Below, piece by piece: positions 1,492 to 18,868 of a stretch of DNA of 26,068 nucleotides. A program made the position numbers and the translations under genes. The stretch's first letter is position 1. Each line of letters opens with the position of its first letter. Below the pieces are notes generated by a model that was given only the letters and a program-made list of their open reading frames with translations, was not told the DNA's origin and did not search any database. This DNA is from a virus: IMG/VR virus record IMGVR_UViG_3300010883_000377, positions 1 to 26,068 of that record; one strand, given 5' to 3'.

Positions 1492-2274
1492 TTATCCTTC
1501 AAATAGTGCTTGGAACTGTGTGTTAAACGGGGTCAATCTGTGTGTGTAGGGCATCACTATCTTGCGCTCTATGTTGTGTTGCGTTGCTGTCTTACGCATA
1601 AACTTCTTCCTCATCATCTGTCCATTGTCCACGTACATATCCGGATACAACTCCAGTATCTTTGCTGTTGTGCGTTCAATATCTTGCCTACGCTTGTCCT
1701 GACGTGCTTCATAGTTTGCACCAGTGAACAGTGTGCTGTTGCCCCTTTCCCTCACGACGAGGTTGAGACAGGTGCCAGTGAAGTATCCCATACGTGCCTG
1801 TTGATACGCCCATTCGTGGTCCTCGCTGTATGCTAGGTCCGTGCGTTGCGTGGGCTTCTCGGGTATGCGCCTTATCCAGTATATCTTGCCTATGTCCCAG
1901 TGTCTGTCTAAGACCCAGTTGTCCTCGAGGGTGCGTGTGTGCTGTTGTACCCGATTGACCGCTGTGGTTATCCCATTCATAGCGGTGAAACTGCTCAGTT
2001 GTCGTGGCAGTCTCGCCAGCAGTGTGTGTGGATCCTTGAGGAACGCATCAGTCTCTGAACGCCCCTCGAACAGTGTTATGTCATCATCACACATACACAT
2101 CCACTCCTCATCGCTGTCATAGAACCGTCGCAGTATGTGATTGCGTCCCCAACTGGGGAACAGGCCGTCGTTGTAGTGGGGGTGCACCCGCCATCCGTGT
2201 TCGTGCCAAAACTTCGCGGTGTCCGGCAGTCGCTTGCTGTTGGTGGTGGTCAGTATGTGTATGTCTAGGCTCAC
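1492..2274 (-). CDS. GT-A-like glycosyltransferase family protein, 260 aa
   Basis: Probably transfers a sugar from a nucleotide-sugar donor. The visible pattern is that of GT-A glycosyltransferases: an N-terminal strand (IHILTTTNS), GRN at residues 43-45, then EEWMCMCDDDITLF with the metal-binding DDD at 63-65, and a later ED at 151-152 followed by a helix and a Gly, where the catalytic base and acceptor loop usually lie. It lacks membrane helices. The start is GTG at 2274, overlapping the upstream stop (GTGA). In phages such enzymes modify DNA bases or surface polysaccharide; the TET-associated phage glycosyltransferases are one candidate family, but the acceptor cannot be told from sequence. 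Last gene of the 2665-1492 operon. Confidence 0.6.
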   Translation of the reverse strand: MSLDIHILTTTNSKRLPDTAKFWHEHGWRVHPHYNDGLFPSWGRNHILRRFYDSDEEWMCMCDDDITLFEGRSETDAFLKDPHTLLARLPRQLSSFTAMNGITTAVNRVQQHTRTLEDNWVLDRHWDIGKIYWIRRIPEKPTQRTDLAYSEDHEWAYQQARMGYFTGTCLNLVVRERGNSTLFTGANYEARQDKRRQDIERTTAKILELYPDMYVDNGQMMRKKFMRKTATQHNIERKIVMPYTHRLTPFNTQFQALFEG

Positions 2275-7018: not shown

Positions 7019-7477
7019 CTATAACCTCTTTTTGAACAAATGACCCACAGTCTCAAACTTCATAAACCTATAAAGTTTCTCGACCTTATCACTTGCTATT
7101 GCTACACTACTTGCAGGACAAAATTCTTTTGCACCTTGTTCTTTGGCCCAAGCAGTTGCGGCGTTTATTAATCTTATTGGCACAAAAATACTCTTACGTT
7201 CTTTTGGATCCACGTACAAGGCCAAGTCCGTGCATAGCAGTTCGTCGCTAAAAATATATGAATTAAGTTGTACTATCATTGCTCCAATTATTCTCTGTTC
7301 TTTCTCTGCTACCCAGCCCATACCTTTTTCTGTGTGTAGCAAATAAACAAAATTCTTTTTTAATTTTTGTTTGTTGAACTTAAGATATGAGTATGCTCCC
7401 TCCTGCCACATTGTGCTGGCCAAGTCAAGTAAAGGATCAACGTCCTCTTCGTTCCATCTTCTAATCTTGTAGCTCAT
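7019..7477 (-). CDS. GNAT-family N-acetyltransferase-like protein, 152 aa
   Basis: The fold pattern is GNAT: an N-terminal IRRWNEEDVDPLLDL, a central WVAEKEQRIIGAMIVQL beta hairpin, a strand LCTDLALYVDPKERKS, a helix and a C-terminal LYRFMKFETVGHLFKKRL. The usual Gly-rich acetyl-CoA loop (Q/RxxGxG/A) is not recognisable after the DLALYVDP strand, so activity may be altered. It lies between distal tail genes and the tip gene, where lambda has K and I, and overlaps a second GNAT gene. Target unknown; acetylation of a virion protein or a host factor are possibilities. Confidence 0.7.
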   Translation of the reverse strand: MSYKIRRWNEEDVDPLLDLASTMWQEGAYSYLKFNKQKLKKNFVYLLHTEKGMGWVAEKEQRIIGAMIVQLNSYIFSDELLCTDLALYVDPKERKSIFVPIRLINAATAWAKEQGAKEFCPASSVAIASDKVEKLYRFMKFETVGHLFKKRL

Positions 7478-7934
7478 AGTCTTTAGTATAAATCTTTTCC
7501 TCTATGTTGAAGCCCAAGCTCATTAAACTGTTGTCGTCTATGTTCTTGTTGCTTATCGTTAAATTTGTTATGCCTTTGTCCGTGCAGTACTCCTCTATGT
7601 GTCCAAACAGTCTGACCATATTATCGTTTGTTTGGTATGTGGGTTCAATGTAAAAATATTGTAGTTTCGCAACATTTCTTTTTGGTGCCCAAGGTAGTTG
7701 TGTAATGAACACCATAGCAAATCCAATTATAACATCGTTGTGGAACAGTCCTATGCTACCCTGCCAAAAAGGACTTACTAGTCCTCTCTTAATGTGCGTA
7801 TAGAAGTGCGTCTCGTCATAGTCAACGCCAAACAGTCCCGTCTCGTGCAACGCCTTGTAGCCTAACTTGGCCACCGCTGTTGCGTCTTCTACTTGTAATT
7901 GTCTCGTTTGTATTACGTCTATTCTCTGCCCCAT
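7461..7934 (-). CDS. Second GNAT-like protein, 157 aa
   Basis: Also of GNAT layout: TRQLQVEDATAVAKLGYKAL, a hairpin around GSIGLFHNDVIIGFAMVFI, the strand AKLQYFYIEPTYQ, a helix RLFGHIEEYCTDKG, and a final strand NLTISNKN...SLGFNIEEKIYTKDYE. As in its neighbour, the acetyl-CoA loop lacks the standard glycines. It overlaps the first GNAT by 17 bases and the DUF2163-like gene by 16. AAAGGA precedes the ATG. The pair probably arose by duplication or acts as a unit. Confidence 0.65.
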   Translation of the reverse strand: MGQRIDVIQTRQLQVEDATAVAKLGYKALHETGLFGVDYDETHFYTHIKRGLVSPFWQGSIGLFHNDVIIGFAMVFITQLPWAPKRNVAKLQYFYIEPTYQTNDNMVRLFGHIEEYCTDKGITNLTISNKNIDDNSLMSLGFNIEEKIYTKDYELQD

Positions 7935-14154: not shown

Positions 14155-15009
14155 TTAGTTAATTTGGTTATCTCCCAATAGTTTAACACCATAAGAGTTG
14201 TGTAATACTTGAACTCCATATACAGATGTCGCTACCACTTCTTCAGCTCTTAAACTTGCGTCTCTCTGAGTCTCTACTTTTAAGTTAGATGCCACAGCTA
14301 AACCTAGTGCGTCTCTCGAGAAGACCGCGTTTGTGCTAGAAGTTGAAGATGCTTCAACTACATTTGAACTTTCAAAAATATCTATGCCGGCTATTCTGCC
14401 TACAAAGCCTTCTGTCATCGCTTGATTGACAACAGATGATGCATTTGGATTAACAAATGTATTAGTCAAAGTTTTCTTGATGTTGTAGATCGCTTTCGGG
14501 TTGAACACACCGTAGTATGGTCCTGGAACGCCTGCCGCTTTTAGTGTAGAGTATGCTTTGAAAAGATCTGCTACTACTAGTTCGGACTGCGTGTCAGTTG
14601 CGCCGTTGATCTGTGCAGTGAATGAACCAAATAGTCCAGTCAATGCTCTGTCGTGTCTTTTTGCAATTGCCTCACCGAACAGTTTTCCCAAGTCCGCAAC
14701 AACGTTTGATACCGAATGGTTTTTAGCCATATCAGTCAATGTTGTCATTATACCTGCTTCTGTTAGTGTGATGTTTGCTACGCCGGTTGCGATCTCTGTG
14801 TTTGATAGGTCTGTGTTTTCAGCCACATCAGCAGAGATTGTCTGCACGGGGTATAGAGGCACTTGTAAAACTTTTCCTGAGTTTGCAGGGATACTAAAGT
14901 TTTTTACAAGACCTGGCATTATTGAAGTCTCGGAAGCTACAAACATAGCCTCCTGCACGATCGGTGCAATTAGATCATTCAATGTTGTTAGTGTTGTTTC
15001 GTTAGCCAT
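14155..15009 (-). CDS. Major capsid protein (HK97-like), 284 aa
   Basis: Forms the icosahedral shell. It lies directly after a scaffold-like gene and in front of a strong terminator, the usual place for the most abundant protein. The sequence begins ETTLTTLNDLIAPIVQEAMF, then FSIPANSGKVLQVPLYPV, a helical segment (AGIMTTLTDMAKNHSVSNVV; LGKLFGEAIAKRHDRALTGL), YYGVFNPKAIYNIKKTL and a C-terminal VYGVQVLHNSYGVKLL, typical of phage coat proteins with the HK97 fold. AAAGGAA precedes the ATG by about eight bases. No delta domain or protease is fused; no separate protease gene was seen. Confidence 0.85.
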   Translation of the reverse strand: MANETTLTTLNDLIAPIVQEAMFVASETSIMPGLVKNFSIPANSGKVLQVPLYPVQTISADVAENTDLSNTEIATGVANITLTEAGIMTTLTDMAKNHSVSNVVADLGKLFGEAIAKRHDRALTGLFGSFTAQINGATDTQSELVVADLFKAYSTLKAAGVPGPYYGVFNPKAIYNIKKTLTNTFVNPNASSVVNQAMTEGFVGRIAGIDIFESSNVVEASSTSSTNAVFSRDALGLAVASNLKVETQRDASLRAEEVVATSVYGVQVLHNSYGVKLLGDNQIN

Positions 15010-15045: not shown

Positions 15046-15753
15046 TTAATAGCCGAGCGTTTTCCTGTGCTCTGCATAAACTTTTCTGTGTTCTGGGTTT
15101 TGCATATCCAGTTTATTTAAATCAACTTTCGAAGCACCATCTGTGGTTGTGTTTGATTTAGTCCCGCCACCTGCTGGTCCTGCCGCAACAAAATGAGAAT
15201 TAGATCTTAAAAAATCTGCAATTAGCCCATCTGGTGTCATAGCATCACCATTTTCAGTATAACGTGTCTGTTTCGATAAAGGATCCACAACTTCTACCGA
15301 GCCGTCTTCATTCATTTTAAGTTGATCTTTTACAAGTCTTACAACTTGCTCTGGATTGATTGCTTTGTGTTTGCTTGCCGCATTCAACAAGGCACCGTCA
15401 ACTTTAATGTTAGACAGTTCGTTTGTTAAGTTATTGATTTTAGAGTTTGCTTTCTCGGCTTGCTCTCTCAATATCGTTTCAAACTCACCCTTTTTCTTTT
15501 GCTCTTCCACTTTGGATAACTCCTCTTTTTCAAGCAAATTCTTGTAGTGATTTACATCAACACCATCAAACTTCTTTAACACTTTGGACTCAGTCGTATG
15601 TTTGACTTTGGCCATTATGTTGTCAACGTCTTCTTGTGTGTATGCCTTCGTGGCTTGATCTACCACGTTCTCCTGTGATGGGATATTTTTTGTTTGTTCC
15701 GTATCTGCCACAGTAGCAGTTTCCGTATTCAAATTCGATGTTTCTTGACTCAT
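15046..15753 (-). CDS. Capsid scaffolding protein, 235 aa
   Basis: Guides capsid assembly and leaves before DNA packaging. It is hydrophilic, Lys/Glu/Asn-rich and mostly helical, with a coiled-coil-like central part (about residues 70-115, KNLLEKEELSKVEEQKKKGE) and a disordered Gly/Thr-rich patch (AAGPAGGGTKSNTT) before a short basic C-terminus, as in GP20-type scaffolds. AGGAGG precedes the ATG. A candidate late promoter lies 48 bases upstream. Confidence 0.75.
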   Translation of the reverse strand: MSQETSNLNTETATVADTEQTKNIPSQENVVDQATKAYTQEDVDNIMAKVKHTTESKVLKKFDGVDVNHYKNLLEKEELSKVEEQKKKGEFETILREQAEKANSKINNLTNELSNIKVDGALLNAASKHKAINPEQVVRLVKDQLKMNEDGSVEVVDPLSKQTRYTENGDAMTPDGLIADFLRSNSHFVAAGPAGGGTKSNTTTDGASKVDLNKLDMQNPEHRKVYAEHRKTLGY

Positions 15754-15794: not shown

Positions 15795-15815
15795 TAAAGT
15801 TATTTATAAGTTAAT
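15795..15815 (-). promoter_or_regulatory. Late-promoter-like TATAAATA element (copy A)
   Basis: A perfect TATAAATA (15808-15801) on the minus strand, identical to the T4 late promoter consensus, 48 bases upstream of the scaffold start. The 21-base plus-strand block TAAAGTTATTTAT, one base, A, one base, TTAAT is shared with 13571-13591 (19 of 21). It overlaps the stop codon of the preceding gene (15811-15813). No host-type -35 box is evident. Confidence 0.55.
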
Positions 15816-16275
15816 AGAATTGTGCGTAGTCTTTAATGCCCCACGCCTTGTAGTAGCCATCGTGTTCCATTATTCGCTGTGCGTGTTTGAGTTTGGCCAA
15901 GTCTTGTATGAATATTAAAGGTGCCTTACCAAAGCTGAAGCTGACTCCTTTGTGCTTGCCGTCATTGTCTGGGTGATCGTACATCACCGCAAATGTTTTA
16001 TTCTTTGTGTGTGCTTTCTTGCAGATGTCCGCAAGTTTCTTCTCAGTTATTTTGTGATTGAAATATAGGACGACAACGTCCATATGGAGAACATTAAAAA
16101 GGCCACAACAATGATCAATCTGAGCCAGCACATCCTCCTTTGCCACTGCGATCTGTATTTTTTTATCTTCGATAGCTCTCTGTGCAAACGGACAGATTGC
16201 CTTTCCACTCGCTTTATGCTTCTTAGCAACAACCTGTCCAATCCACTTCTCAATGTCTTTACTTCCTACGTCCAC
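15811..16275 (-). CDS. Hypothetical protein with CPFA motif, 154 aa
   Basis: Unknown function. The N-terminus reads IEKWIGQVVAKKHKASGKAICPFAQRAIEDKKIQIAV, which resembles the W...CPFA...I.V pattern of DUF1415 proteins; the family link is tentative. Later parts include DHPDNDGKHKGVSFSFGKAPLIFIQDL, an alpha/beta pattern. The likely start is GTG at 16275, overlapping the end of the 28-residue gene; no ATG is available until residue 65. The weak start signal suggests coupling to the upstream small gene. Confidence 0.6.
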   Translation of the reverse strand: MDVGSKDIEKWIGQVVAKKHKASGKAICPFAQRAIEDKKIQIAVAKEDVLAQIDHCCGLFNVLHMDVVVLYFNHKITEKKLADICKKAHTKNKTFAVMYDHPDNDGKHKGVSFSFGKAPLIFIQDLAKLKHAQRIMEHDGYYKAWGIKDYAQFY

Positions 16276-16345: not shown

Positions 16346-16634
16346 TGTTAGTTCCTCCTTTAAGACTTATGCTGTGTTTGTCGTGTACACCGTATATAGG
16401 TTCAAGTCCTCTGTTTTGGTGATCACTGTACAATGATAGCAATTCTGTTCCACGTTCCATTGCGGCTTTACGCATATTACGTAAGGCACGTCTCGCCTCT
16501 ATGGCATAACGTCTAGATGGACGGTGCATTAACTTGTCGTAAGCCGTAAAATAATCTAAACACGCCTTCTTTAATTTGTTGTGTCTAGCTGTCTCGTTTG
16601 GCTCTTTGTATATCCTTCTAATTGTGTTTGGCAT
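16332..16634 (-). CDS. Basic hypothetical protein, 100 aa
   Basis: Arg/Lys-rich, helical protein in the cargo cluster between SpeD-like and scaffold genes. Reads TIRRIYKEPNETARHNKLKK, then YAIEARRALRNMRKAAMERGTELLSLYSDH and a C-terminal IYGVHDKHSISLKGGTN. AGGAGAGGAA precedes the ATG and the start overlaps the upstream stop as TAATG. No family recognised. Its charge suggests nucleic acid contact, perhaps in the head interior; this is inference. Confidence 0.75.
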   Translation of the reverse strand: MPNTIRRIYKEPNETARHNKLKKACLDYFTAYDKLMHRPSRRYAIEARRALRNMRKAAMERGTELLSLYSDHQNRGLEPIYGVHDKHSISLKGGTNNART

Positions 16635-16789
16635 TATTTCCTCTCCTGGATCTTGTTGATCAAATCAAATGCAACTTTCACTTTCTCTTCCAGCACTCTG
16701 ATACGATAGTGTGCCTGTGCCAAGGTTATTATCAGTAGCACGAATGCTACAAAGATGGGCCACAGTGCTGTCAGTGTCTGTATGTCCAT
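16634..16789 (-). CDS. Single-helix membrane protein, holin-like, 51 aa
   Basis: Start placed at 16789 (MDIQTLTALWP), which overlaps the upstream stop as TAATG; a longer frame to 16816 lies inside that gene. A hydrophobic segment of about 18 residues (PIFVAFVLLIITLAQA) is followed by a short charged coiled-coil-like tail (RIRVLEEKVKVAFDLINKIQ). Such small one-helix proteins include BhlA-type holins and spanin-like accessories, but no endolysin is in the window to support a lysis cassette, so holin is only a candidate. Confidence 0.6.
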   Translation of the reverse strand: MDIQTLTALWPIFVAFVLLIITLAQAHYRIRVLEEKVKVAFDLINKIQERK

Positions 16790-17235
16790 TAGTCGTATAC
16801 CACCTCGTCCTTCCAACTTGCGTTGTAGTGTTTGTTGTCCCAGTGGTTCAGTTCTTGATCAGCCAATGTCTTGAATCCCTTCTCCCTGTCTAGGTACTTG
16901 TAGTCCAACTGTTCAATGTCAAACTGTGCCAACCAAGTGAACACGTCCTTGATCTTGAACCCCTTGCAACTGTACACGTCCAACTGTATCAGTCCATCCT
17001 CGTCCCAACTGTGGAATGTTATTGAACTGGTTTTTATGATCGCTGTCGAACTCCAACCCTTGTTGCCTGGTTCCTCGCAGTATGCTGAATGCGGTCCTGA
17101 CAGGATATCCATATCTATGTGTTTGATTAAACTTTTTATTTCCTTGTTGAGTCTATCACTGCTGTAATTGTAAAGGGGCGGTGAGTTTACCTCTGCCCTT
17201 ATTAAAAGATGTTTGTGTACTAGAGCAGGTTGCAT
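16789..17235 (-). CDS. S-adenosylmethionine decarboxylase (SpeD)-like protein, 148 aa
   Basis: SpeD enzymes cleave themselves to form a pyruvoyl group and decarboxylate AdoMet for polyamine synthesis. The N-terminal HKHLLIRAE and the block GWSSTAIIKTSSITFHSWDE plus LIQLDVYSCKGF match the family. With the alignment that gives family spacing, Ser70 corresponds to the pyruvoyl serine, His75 lies five residues later and Cys90 twenty residues later, as in Thermotoga AdoMetDC (Ser63, His68, Cys83). The residue before Ser70 is Thr69 instead of the conserved Glu. Processing or substrate may therefore differ. It is a cargo gene in the head module, directly after a 29-codon frame (TAG ATG junction). 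Confidence 0.7.
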   Translation of the reverse strand: MQPALVHKHLLIRAEVNSPPLYNYSSDRLNKEIKSLIKHIDMDILSGPHSAYCEEPGNKGWSSTAIIKTSSITFHSWDEDGLIQLDVYSCKGFKIKDVFTWLAQFDIEQLDYKYLDREKGFKTLADQELNHWDNKHYNASWKDEVVYD

Positions 17236-17325
17236 CTAAAACCGCCTAAACGTTTTATCTATGAACTCTGCAAGTTTGTCGCAGGCTTCAAAAAACCTTT
17301 GTAAAATTTTATCCAGCTGGTTCAT
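17236..17325 (-). CDS. Small amphipathic peptide, 29 aa (possible)
   Basis: The ATG at 17325 lies inside the last codons of the portal gene in another frame; the frame ends TAG at 17238-17236, immediately before the ATG of the SpeD-like gene. The peptide (begins MNQLDKILQRFFEACDKLAE) forms a plausible amphipathic helix with basic C-terminus. GGAAA upstream is a weak ribosome binding site. It fills the only gap between portal and the next gene, which supports it moderately. Confidence 0.4.
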   Translation of the reverse strand: MNQLDKILQRFFEACDKLAEFIDKTFRRF

Positions 17326-18868
17326 TATTAGCATTTCCAAATGTTGTTGGCAGTTCGGGGTGCAAGTTTTTAATCTCTTCATCGGTGTGTCCCGCTTCTA
17401 TCATTTCTCTTAAATGTTTAATCATATCATCAGTGTTTTGTACTGGTGTGTGTTGCATCATCAATTTTTGATCTGCTTTCATTACATCTAATTCATCATC
17501 GTCTTTTGCTAATAGTTCTAGTATCTTGTTGTCTATGACAGCTTTAACATCTGGTCCTGCACTTGCTAGATCTCTCTGCATAGTTGCGGCTTTGGCTAAA
17601 ATGTCCATATCCAAGTTCTTGTCTCTAAGATGGAACGCCATAGGATACTTTATCTCACCATCAAAATTTATGTTCTGCCATTTTGCCCACACTCTAAAGA
17701 ACTGTTCTTCAAATAACTCTAGTTGTTTGGCCTTCTCGCAAAGTTTGGCATCCAACAATAGGAACTCCGATTGCATTGCGACACCACTCATCTGTCTTGT
17801 CTCTATCGCACGGATGGCTCCCATATGCGCCATTCTATCAATGGATTTAATCTTGCTGTCTATACTCTTTAATATTGAATCTAAATTTGCACCTGTCGGC
17901 TGTAAAATATAAGGTTTAAGTCCTGCGTCAGTCTCGTTAGGCATTGTGATTATACTGCCCGCTCCTGCTGTTGCTTCTACGTCTGGTGTCTTAACAAGTG
18001 TGGGGTGATTCGTTAGTCGAATTAATTGTTCAACTTCCGAGAGTTCTGAGTATATCGCCATTTGTTGATCTGCAACATCTCCCACATCACTTACACCAAT
18101 ACCTCTTATTGGTGATCTAGAAGCATAACACCAAATAGCTGGTATCTCTCCAATTGGATTTGGTTTCTGTTCAACAACTTGTGTTGCTTTACCTTTCTTG
18201 GCATCGTATATCTCAACTGTGATAGTTTCTTTTGTCCAAGTTCTCAAATAGTAAGTGGGTGCGTTTGTGTAAGTCCTGTCTTCTTTTTCCAACAACACCA
18301 AATAATTTAAATCATAGTGTCCGTTTGGTAGCCTCTGCCAGTTCCAATCTAAAACGTTCTCGGGTGAAAAAAGTGTGCAGTAAGGACGGATGCCTTGTTG
18401 CAGTTCTTCAGCACGAGTGCCTACTACTGTGTCCGGTCGATCCGCCAACACAACACAGTGTCCGTAAATTGTGCTCATAAGGTTTACGTCCCTCATAAAA
18501 CTTTCCCAAGTCCTGCCTTCCATATCACAGTCTTTTAAGAAAGCATCCATCTCTGGTGTGTCTTTCAAACTGCCGAAGTCCCTTGTGGGTTGGTTCCTGT
18601 AAATGAAGCTGTTGTAAATGTGTGTGATAGATTTCACGTGGTTGTCTAAAGGTGTCGCCGCCAACCTGCTTGAGTATTCAGGTGATGATTCGTAAACGTA
18701 CTTTGTAAGGTAGCTACCCATTTTGTAATGAGCTCCACCCAAATAAGAATTAATTAAAAATTTCCAACGTTGAATGTAATTGTTGTATTCGCTGTGTGAT
18801 GGTAAGCCTTCTAAATGGCTACCGCTGTCTGTGCCTTGGTCGGTGTTTGTAAAACTATAATCGGCCAT
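17309..18868 (-). CDS. Portal protein, 519 aa
   Basis: Forms the dodecameric DNA channel at one vertex. Location just after terL and size of about 500 residues are typical. Visible features include the N-terminal helical region, GIRPYCTLFSPENVLDWNW, PIGEIPAIWCYASRSPIRGIGVSDVGDVADQQMAIYSELS, the helix-rich clip/wing part and AIETRQMSGVAMQSEFLLLDAKLCEKA, characteristic of siphophage portals. GAGGAG precedes the ATG, which overlaps terL by 14 bases. The C-terminal 100 residues are acidic and helical. Confidence 0.85.
   Translation of the reverse strand: MADYSFTNTDQGTDSGSHLEGLPSHSEYNNYIQRWKFLINSYLGGAHYKMGSYLTKYVYESSPEYSSRLAATPLDNHVKSITHIYNSFIYRNQPTRDFGSLKDTPEMDAFLKDCDMEGRTWESFMRDVNLMSTIYGHCVVLADRPDTVVGTRAEELQQGIRPYCTLFSPENVLDWNWQRLPNGHYDLNYLVLLEKEDRTYTNAPTYYLRTWTKETITVEIYDAKKGKATQVVEQKPNPIGEIPAIWCYASRSPIRGIGVSDVGDVADQQMAIYSELSEVEQLIRLTNHPTLVKTPDVEATAGAGSIITMPNETDAGLKPYILQPTGANLDSILKSIDSKIKSIDRMAHMGAIRAIETRQMSGVAMQSEFLLLDAKLCEKAKQLELFEEQFFRVWAKWQNINFDGEIKYPMAFHLRDKNLDMDILAKAATMQRDLASAGPDVKAVIDNKILELLAKDDDELDVMKADQKLMMQHTPVQNTDDMIKHLREMIEAGHTDEEIKNLHPELPTTFGNANNEPAG

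Follow-up and report, generated by a model that had tools for sequence, protein, structure and literature searches.

Described SpeD enzymes and their offshoots

The class 1b S-adenosylmethionine decarboxylases (AdoMetDC, SpeD) of Thermotoga maritima (1tlu) and Aquifex aeolicus (2iii) have a Glu residue directly before the pyruvoyl serine (position -1), a His residue directly after it (position +1) and the Pro of an HTWPE motif. In PMC10407285, the triad residues of the T. maritima enzyme are named as S63, H68 and C83, and a Pro residue is described as fully conserved in bona fide AdoMetDCs, but not in arginine decarboxylases (ADCs). The same paper assigns four diagnostic residues (Gln, Thr, Phe and Tyr) to the SpeDC ornithine decarboxylases, places SpeDC and the SpeD protein of the pelagiphage HTVC201P in one clade, and describes the characterised SpeD offshoots as all using arginine or ornithine, and none of them lysine.

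The HTVC201P protein (AXH71538) is a pyruvoyl-dependent arginine decarboxylase with a Km of 0.87 mM and a kcat of 0.25 s-1 on arginine. The purified protein decarboxylated neither ornithine nor lysine, and an E. coli speD mutant did not regain spermidine with it (PMC9992855). Several SpeD homologues of uncultured phages, described as HTVC201P-like, are ornithine decarboxylases (ODCs) according to the same study.

A SpeD homologue in a head-gene cluster

The window, by which we mean the whole analysed stretch of 26,068 nucleotides (IMG/VR virus record IMGVR_UViG_3300010883_000377), is probably a fragment, and it carries a siphophage-like gene set encoding terminase, portal, scaffold, capsid, tape measure and tail proteins. 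The genes around the SpeD homologue are as follows:

17309..18868, minus strand: portal protein gene, directly upstream of the SpeD-like gene (phrog_145, E 5.5e-63; conserved neighbour)
16789..17235, minus strand: predicted SpeD-like pyruvoyl-dependent decarboxylase gene (148 aa, ATG start; intact and conserved in IMG/VR relatives)
16634..16789, minus strand: gene that follows, recognised from the sequence and encoding a small protein that has a hydrophobic segment (L011 and L020 have a homologue at this position)
15046..15753, minus strand: head scaffolding protein gene, downstream (phrog_2303, E 1.8e-6; conserved order)
14155..15009, minus strand: major capsid protein gene (phrog_267, E 5.2e-18)

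The SpeD-like open reading frame has an AGGCGG-like ribosome-binding site in TTTAGGCGGTTTTAGATG, and its stop codon overlaps the ATG of the small gene (TAATG). This overlap suggests translational coupling to the next gene, so that the SpeD-like gene would probably be part of a head-gene operon. In about 36 related contigs, the SpeD-like gene is located between the portal gene and the cluster of small gene, scaffold and capsid. The HTVC201P gene, in contrast, adjoins ribonucleotide reductase in a podovirus, i.e. in a different phage lineage, and the speD genes of Pelagivirus (Autographiviridae) phages are found next to ribonucleotide reductase as well. No other polyamine gene was recognised within the 26-kb window.

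Judged by terminase, portal and capsid, the nearest cultured phages are HTVC111P, HTVC202P, HTVC026P, HTVC112P and DSL-LC06 (42-49% identity), and the major capsid protein is 46-48% identical to those of the first four, which are Pelagibacter phages. None of these four was among the cultured phages with SpeD matches, and no SpeD is annotated in the stretches of HTVC111P and HTVC202P that were read. SAR11 is nevertheless doubtful as the host, even though the nearest cultured relatives are mostly Pelagibacter phages: the GC content of the window is 44% versus about 30-35% in cultured pelagiphages, and versus 30-31% in the comparison made for the host question, and the host may therefore not belong to SAR11.

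Some other genes of the window deserve mention in their own right. A 154-aa protein with weak DUF6875/DUF1415 similarity (15811-16275, minus strand) is conserved across many contigs, where its gene is close to that of the SpeD homologue. Two GNAT-like acetyltransferase genes, which overlap and lie in tandem (7019-7934, minus strand), occupy an unusual place between baseplate-hub-like and phage-tail_3 genes, and a 260-aa protein (1492-2274, minus strand) with a CDDD-like motif looks by eye like a glycosyltransferase, with no Pfam or PHROG match.

Family membership and catalytic residues

Sequence comparisons identify the 148-aa protein as a class 1b AdoMetDC/SpeD homologue, with a similarity that goes beyond chance. 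It matches the Pfam profile PF02675 (AdoMet_dc) with 44.2 bits (E 2.7e-11), the curated cut-off being 25 bits, as well as phrog_3125, 'S-adenosylmethionine decarboxylase' (E 1.8e-11), and, in a phmmer search, the A. aeolicus AdoMetDC (E 2e-4). An AlphaFold2 model, predicted from an alignment from which annotated phage rows were left out, has a mean pLDDT of 87.7. The predicted fold matches that of SpeD and is closest to the Thermotoga AdoMetDC, the best solved matches being the T. maritima and A. aeolicus enzymes (1vr7, 2iii and 1tlu; E about 2e-6, probability 1.00). The motif of the protein reads A-I-I-K-T-S-S-I-T-F-H-S-W-D...Q-L-D-V-Y-S-C, with the following residues of interest:

17029..17031, minus strand: Thr69, residue -1, directly before the predicted cleavage site (Thermotoga SpeD has Glu here and E. 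coli SpeD has Lys)
17026..17028, minus strand: Ser70 (AGT), putative site of self-cleavage and source of the pyruvoyl group (an invariant column of the 81-row alignment; AGT and TCN both occur in the clade)
17023..17025, minus strand: Ser71, residue +1 (a position that is His in most SpeDs)
17017..17019, minus strand: Thr73, which invariably accompanies Ser71
17011..17013, minus strand: His75, predicted catalytic/processing histidine, equivalent to T. maritima His68 (invariant column)
16966..16968, minus strand: Cys90, predicted catalytic cysteine, equivalent to T. maritima Cys83 (invariant column)

As a preliminary description of this gene had stated, Ser70, His75 and Cys90 have the spacing of the AdoMetDC catalytic residues (S-x4-H-x14-C, identical to the T. 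maritima triad), and the residues flanking the putative pyruvoyl serine are indeed Thr and Ser. Six residues (Ser70, His75, Cys90, Asp86, Gly60 and Arg117) do not vary in an alignment of 81 rows, which covers phage, cellular, SpeDC-like and canonical (A-E-S-H) SpeD proteins. Homologues without the His or the Cys were not found in this alignment, and the invariance of S70, H75 and C90 in all rows, canonical SpeDs included, rules out a better placement of Glu-Ser elsewhere. The window protein therefore has the fold, as predicted here, and the triad spacing of the class 1b enzymes, but it has none of their three other features: the Glu before the pyruvoyl serine, the His after it and the Pro of HTWPE.

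Relatives and the residue before the pyruvoyl serine

IMG/VR contains 25 close relatives of the 148-aa protein and, by profile search, more than 550 candidates, 80 of which were kept. The cultured-phage matches comprised only Pelagibacter phages and one uncultured marine phage, and an SpeDC-like query had no match among the phage records. Phylogenetic placement, which had been proposed as a check, was carried out and assigned the window protein to the clade of HTVC201P SpeD (37% identity), apart from the SpeDC-like clade; in the tree, the window and HTVC201P proteins belong to a single large clade, whose members come from phages and marine cells and all have T-S.

All phage and marine cellular members of this clade with a readable motif have Thr at -1, the proportion being 100% in each phage and cellular group and also in the SpeDC-like group. 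The readable motifs are ETSH at 73 loci, DTSH at 8 and TSS, with T, D, E or K before it, at 49; these are counts of loci, with some contigs fetched twice, and two of the 49 TSS loci (L132 and L133) are from candidate-phyla bacteria. The cultured pelagiphage proteins have I-[ED]-T-S-H as their cleavage site, which is IETSH in HTVC201P. A-E-S-H or x-E-S-H is found in most canonical candidate-phyla SpeDs and in 19 viral proteins. The earlier view that Glu had been replaced by Thr thus holds in comparison with Thermotoga and Aquifex SpeD, but not as a novelty, since Thr is the rule in the protein's own clade. Judged by these sequences, Thr69 is a normal trait of a known phage-enzyme family and no anomaly of the window protein.

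The survey of homologues also gave three separate observations. An E-T-S-H SpeD homologue is encoded on SAR11-type chromosomal contigs (L118:2989-3369 and L122:2998-3378), where its neighbours are glutamine synthetase, glutamate-synthase-domain and GXGXG proteins and an ammonium-transporter-like gene; it is possibly the cellular origin of the phage genes, and within this nitrogen-assimilation cluster it is a candidate for a decarboxylase that does not act on AdoMet. Candidate-phyla homologues L166, L171 and L173 have V-E-S-G for E-S-H at the cleavage site and form a well-supported group of their own. Lastly, viral SpeDC-like proteins (L195-L197, L219 and L208-L209) have a Q-D-S-N or E-T-S-N site and H-F after the catalytic His.

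The Ser71/Thr73 state

Based on the sequences compared, the change that is specific to the subclade of the window protein is His to Ser at +1, and not Thr for Glu. The 26 non-redundant phage rows with Ser in place of His cluster as a single group (bootstrap 93, SH-aLRT 89), nested with ETSH proteins of the same phage lineage (L062-L066, L077 and L097). The sequence ETSHIAIHCW occurs at 17 loci of that lineage, partly on the same contigs. Ser71 is never seen without Thr73: Thr occupies position +3 in all 55 TSS proteins, whereas this position is A, T, V, G or S in the TSH proteins. Candidate-phyla bacteria have the S-x-T pair as well, in their SpeDC-like proteins (QFIETSSITIHF), and position +1 is variable in related SpeDC-like proteins (S, N, T or L; N, T or S in further viral ones). 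In the tree, the TSS state originates inside a phage clade with TSH, and the SpeDC-like clade lies elsewhere. A single TSS origin together with the SpeDC-like proteins costs 19.5 log units (p-AU 0.055), and a joint TSS clade is therefore marginally disfavoured, though not strictly rejected.

In the AlphaFold2 model, residues 70-77 form one strand, which is that of the catalytic His75, and residues 71, 73 and 75 should consequently share one face, directed towards the active site. It is conceivable, but in our view rather improbable, that the S71/T73 state replaced His71 convergently with SpeDC-like enzymes in a large marine siphophage-like lineage, became fixed in the head-assembly cluster, and shifts the substrate or pH preference (for example from arginine to ornithine, or to a new amino acid) in a manner linked to late infection and DNA packaging, and not to replication.

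Processing and substrate

Taken at face value, the unusual residues that flank the cleavage site could point to a non-processed pseudoenzyme, acting as a binder, as the preliminary description had considered, or as an activator of a host enzyme like the trypanosome prozyme. A pseudoenzyme could freely lose Ser, His and Cys, but these residues are invariant in all relatives, and the prozyme-like loss of processing residues is absent from the window protein. Moreover, the Ser70 codon in the TSS phage clade is AGT in 17 cases and TCN in 9, while the residue never varies. A switch between AGT and TCN requires a non-Ser intermediate codon or a double change. The median dN/dS is 0.16 (46 pairs with dS < 1.5), and the triad thus appears intact and under purifying selection. 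Neither flanking residue demands another view: E. coli SpeD, with the site H-L-D-K-S-H, has Lys before Ser112, the processed serine, so that Glu at -1 is dispensable for processing; the active pyruvoyl enzyme of HTVC201P carries Thr at -1, and +1 is variable in SpeDC-like proteins. Together with the fold match, the invariant triad, the retention of Ser70 across the codon switch and the low dN/dS favour a self-processing enzyme, which the window protein very probably is, and make a dead binder or activator highly improbable. In human AdoMetDC, the -1 residue Glu67 is among the ligand-contacting active-site residues (PMC5377238), and loss of the Glu would therefore fit a changed substrate better than lost processing.

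A changed substrate, which had also been suggested for this SpeD homologue, is indeed probable, as its clade holds the HTVC201P arginine decarboxylase that fails to rescue spermidine (PMC9992855). The window protein shares with HTVC201P SpeD the size class, the T-S site, the triad, Q84-L-D-V-Y-[ST]-C and the absence of Pro after HxW; Gln84 and Trp77 are common to it and the HTVC201P group, unlike the SpeDC-like proteins. It has Asp78 where 88% of canonical SpeD rows have Pro, and Ala65, Thr69 and Ser76 where SpeDC would have Gln, Thr and Phe; these columns were equated with the AdoMetDC Pro and with three of the four SpeDC residues (Gln, Thr and Phe) in the present analysis, from the description in PMC10407285, and the assignments are our own. 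Clade placement, the missing Pro and the missing SpeDC residues make arginine the best guess, with ornithine as the main rival because the HTVC201P-like phage homologues include ODCs. It should be noted that SpeDAs arose several times, so that grouping with one of them says less than belonging to a family of single origin would. We thus infer, with a probability of a little under 0.6, a small class 1b SpeD-fold proenzyme that cleaves itself to a pyruvoyl enzyme, most likely acting on L-arginine for polyamine supply during infection. The proenzyme would cleave itself between Thr69 and Ser70 with the help of His75, and Ser70 would be converted to the pyruvoyl cofactor with which the alpha chain begins. 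This group would then form a Schiff base with the amino acid, which would be decarboxylated with Cys90 as proton donor. The agmatine most likely produced from L-arginine could be converted by host enzymes to putrescine and further to polyamines.

The specificity could nevertheless differ from that of HTVC201P, because the window subclade lacks the Gln65 of that group (K68-T69-S70-S71 and Ala65 compared with E-T-S-H and Gln65) and has Ser71/Thr73 and a longer loop and C-terminus. Ornithine, which an SpeDC-like pyruvoyl enzyme would convert directly to putrescine by the same chemistry, has a modest chance of being the substrate. Besides the phage ODCs and the joint clade of SpeDC and HTVC201P mentioned above, this is suggested by the Thr at -1, the triad and the rare T-S-S-[IL]-T signature, with Ser at +1 and Thr at +3, shared with SpeDC/SpeDC-like proteins (candidate-phyla L132, L133 and L162-L167, which are other proteins than the assayed SpeDCs of PMC10407285). 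However, the SpeDC-like proteins are only about 20-27% identical to the window protein and have an invariant Gln65 and Phe76, both of which it lacks, and the TSS state appears to have arisen separately. It is less probable still, and overall unlikely, that the substrate of a processed enzyme is neither arginine, ornithine nor AdoMet. The strict pairing of Ser71 with Thr73 on the modelled face of His75, and an Ala65 unlike the ADC group, would allow for a reshaped pocket, but no such substrate is among those of the characterised offshoots described in PMC10407285, and a +1 residue that varies in SpeDC-like proteins need not set the substrate. The Pfam family, predicted fold and intact triad would suit a bona fide AdoMetDC that supplies decarboxylated AdoMet for spermidine, as in cyanophages. 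This is very unlikely, and AdoMet an unlikely substrate from the sequence: the conserved Pro and the Glu before Ser are missing, 19 of 27 loci in the same collection show the A-E-S-H of canonical viral SpeDs, and AdoMet activity has been lost in the nearest tested relative (PMC9992855).

Implications

Judged by its sequence, the gene in the window is a further example of the described phage SpeD-derived decarboxylases, with a subclade-specific S71/T73 state. Phage SpeD-derived amino-acid decarboxylases are thereby extended from cultured pelagiphages to a separate uncultured marine lineage, in which the gene is fixed in the head-gene cluster, and the annotation of such genes as 'S-adenosylmethionine decarboxylase' probably indicates the wrong activity. 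The T-S-S-x-T and T-S-H-x-A states may serve as a small set of natural variants for probing substrate choice in pyruvoyl enzymes.
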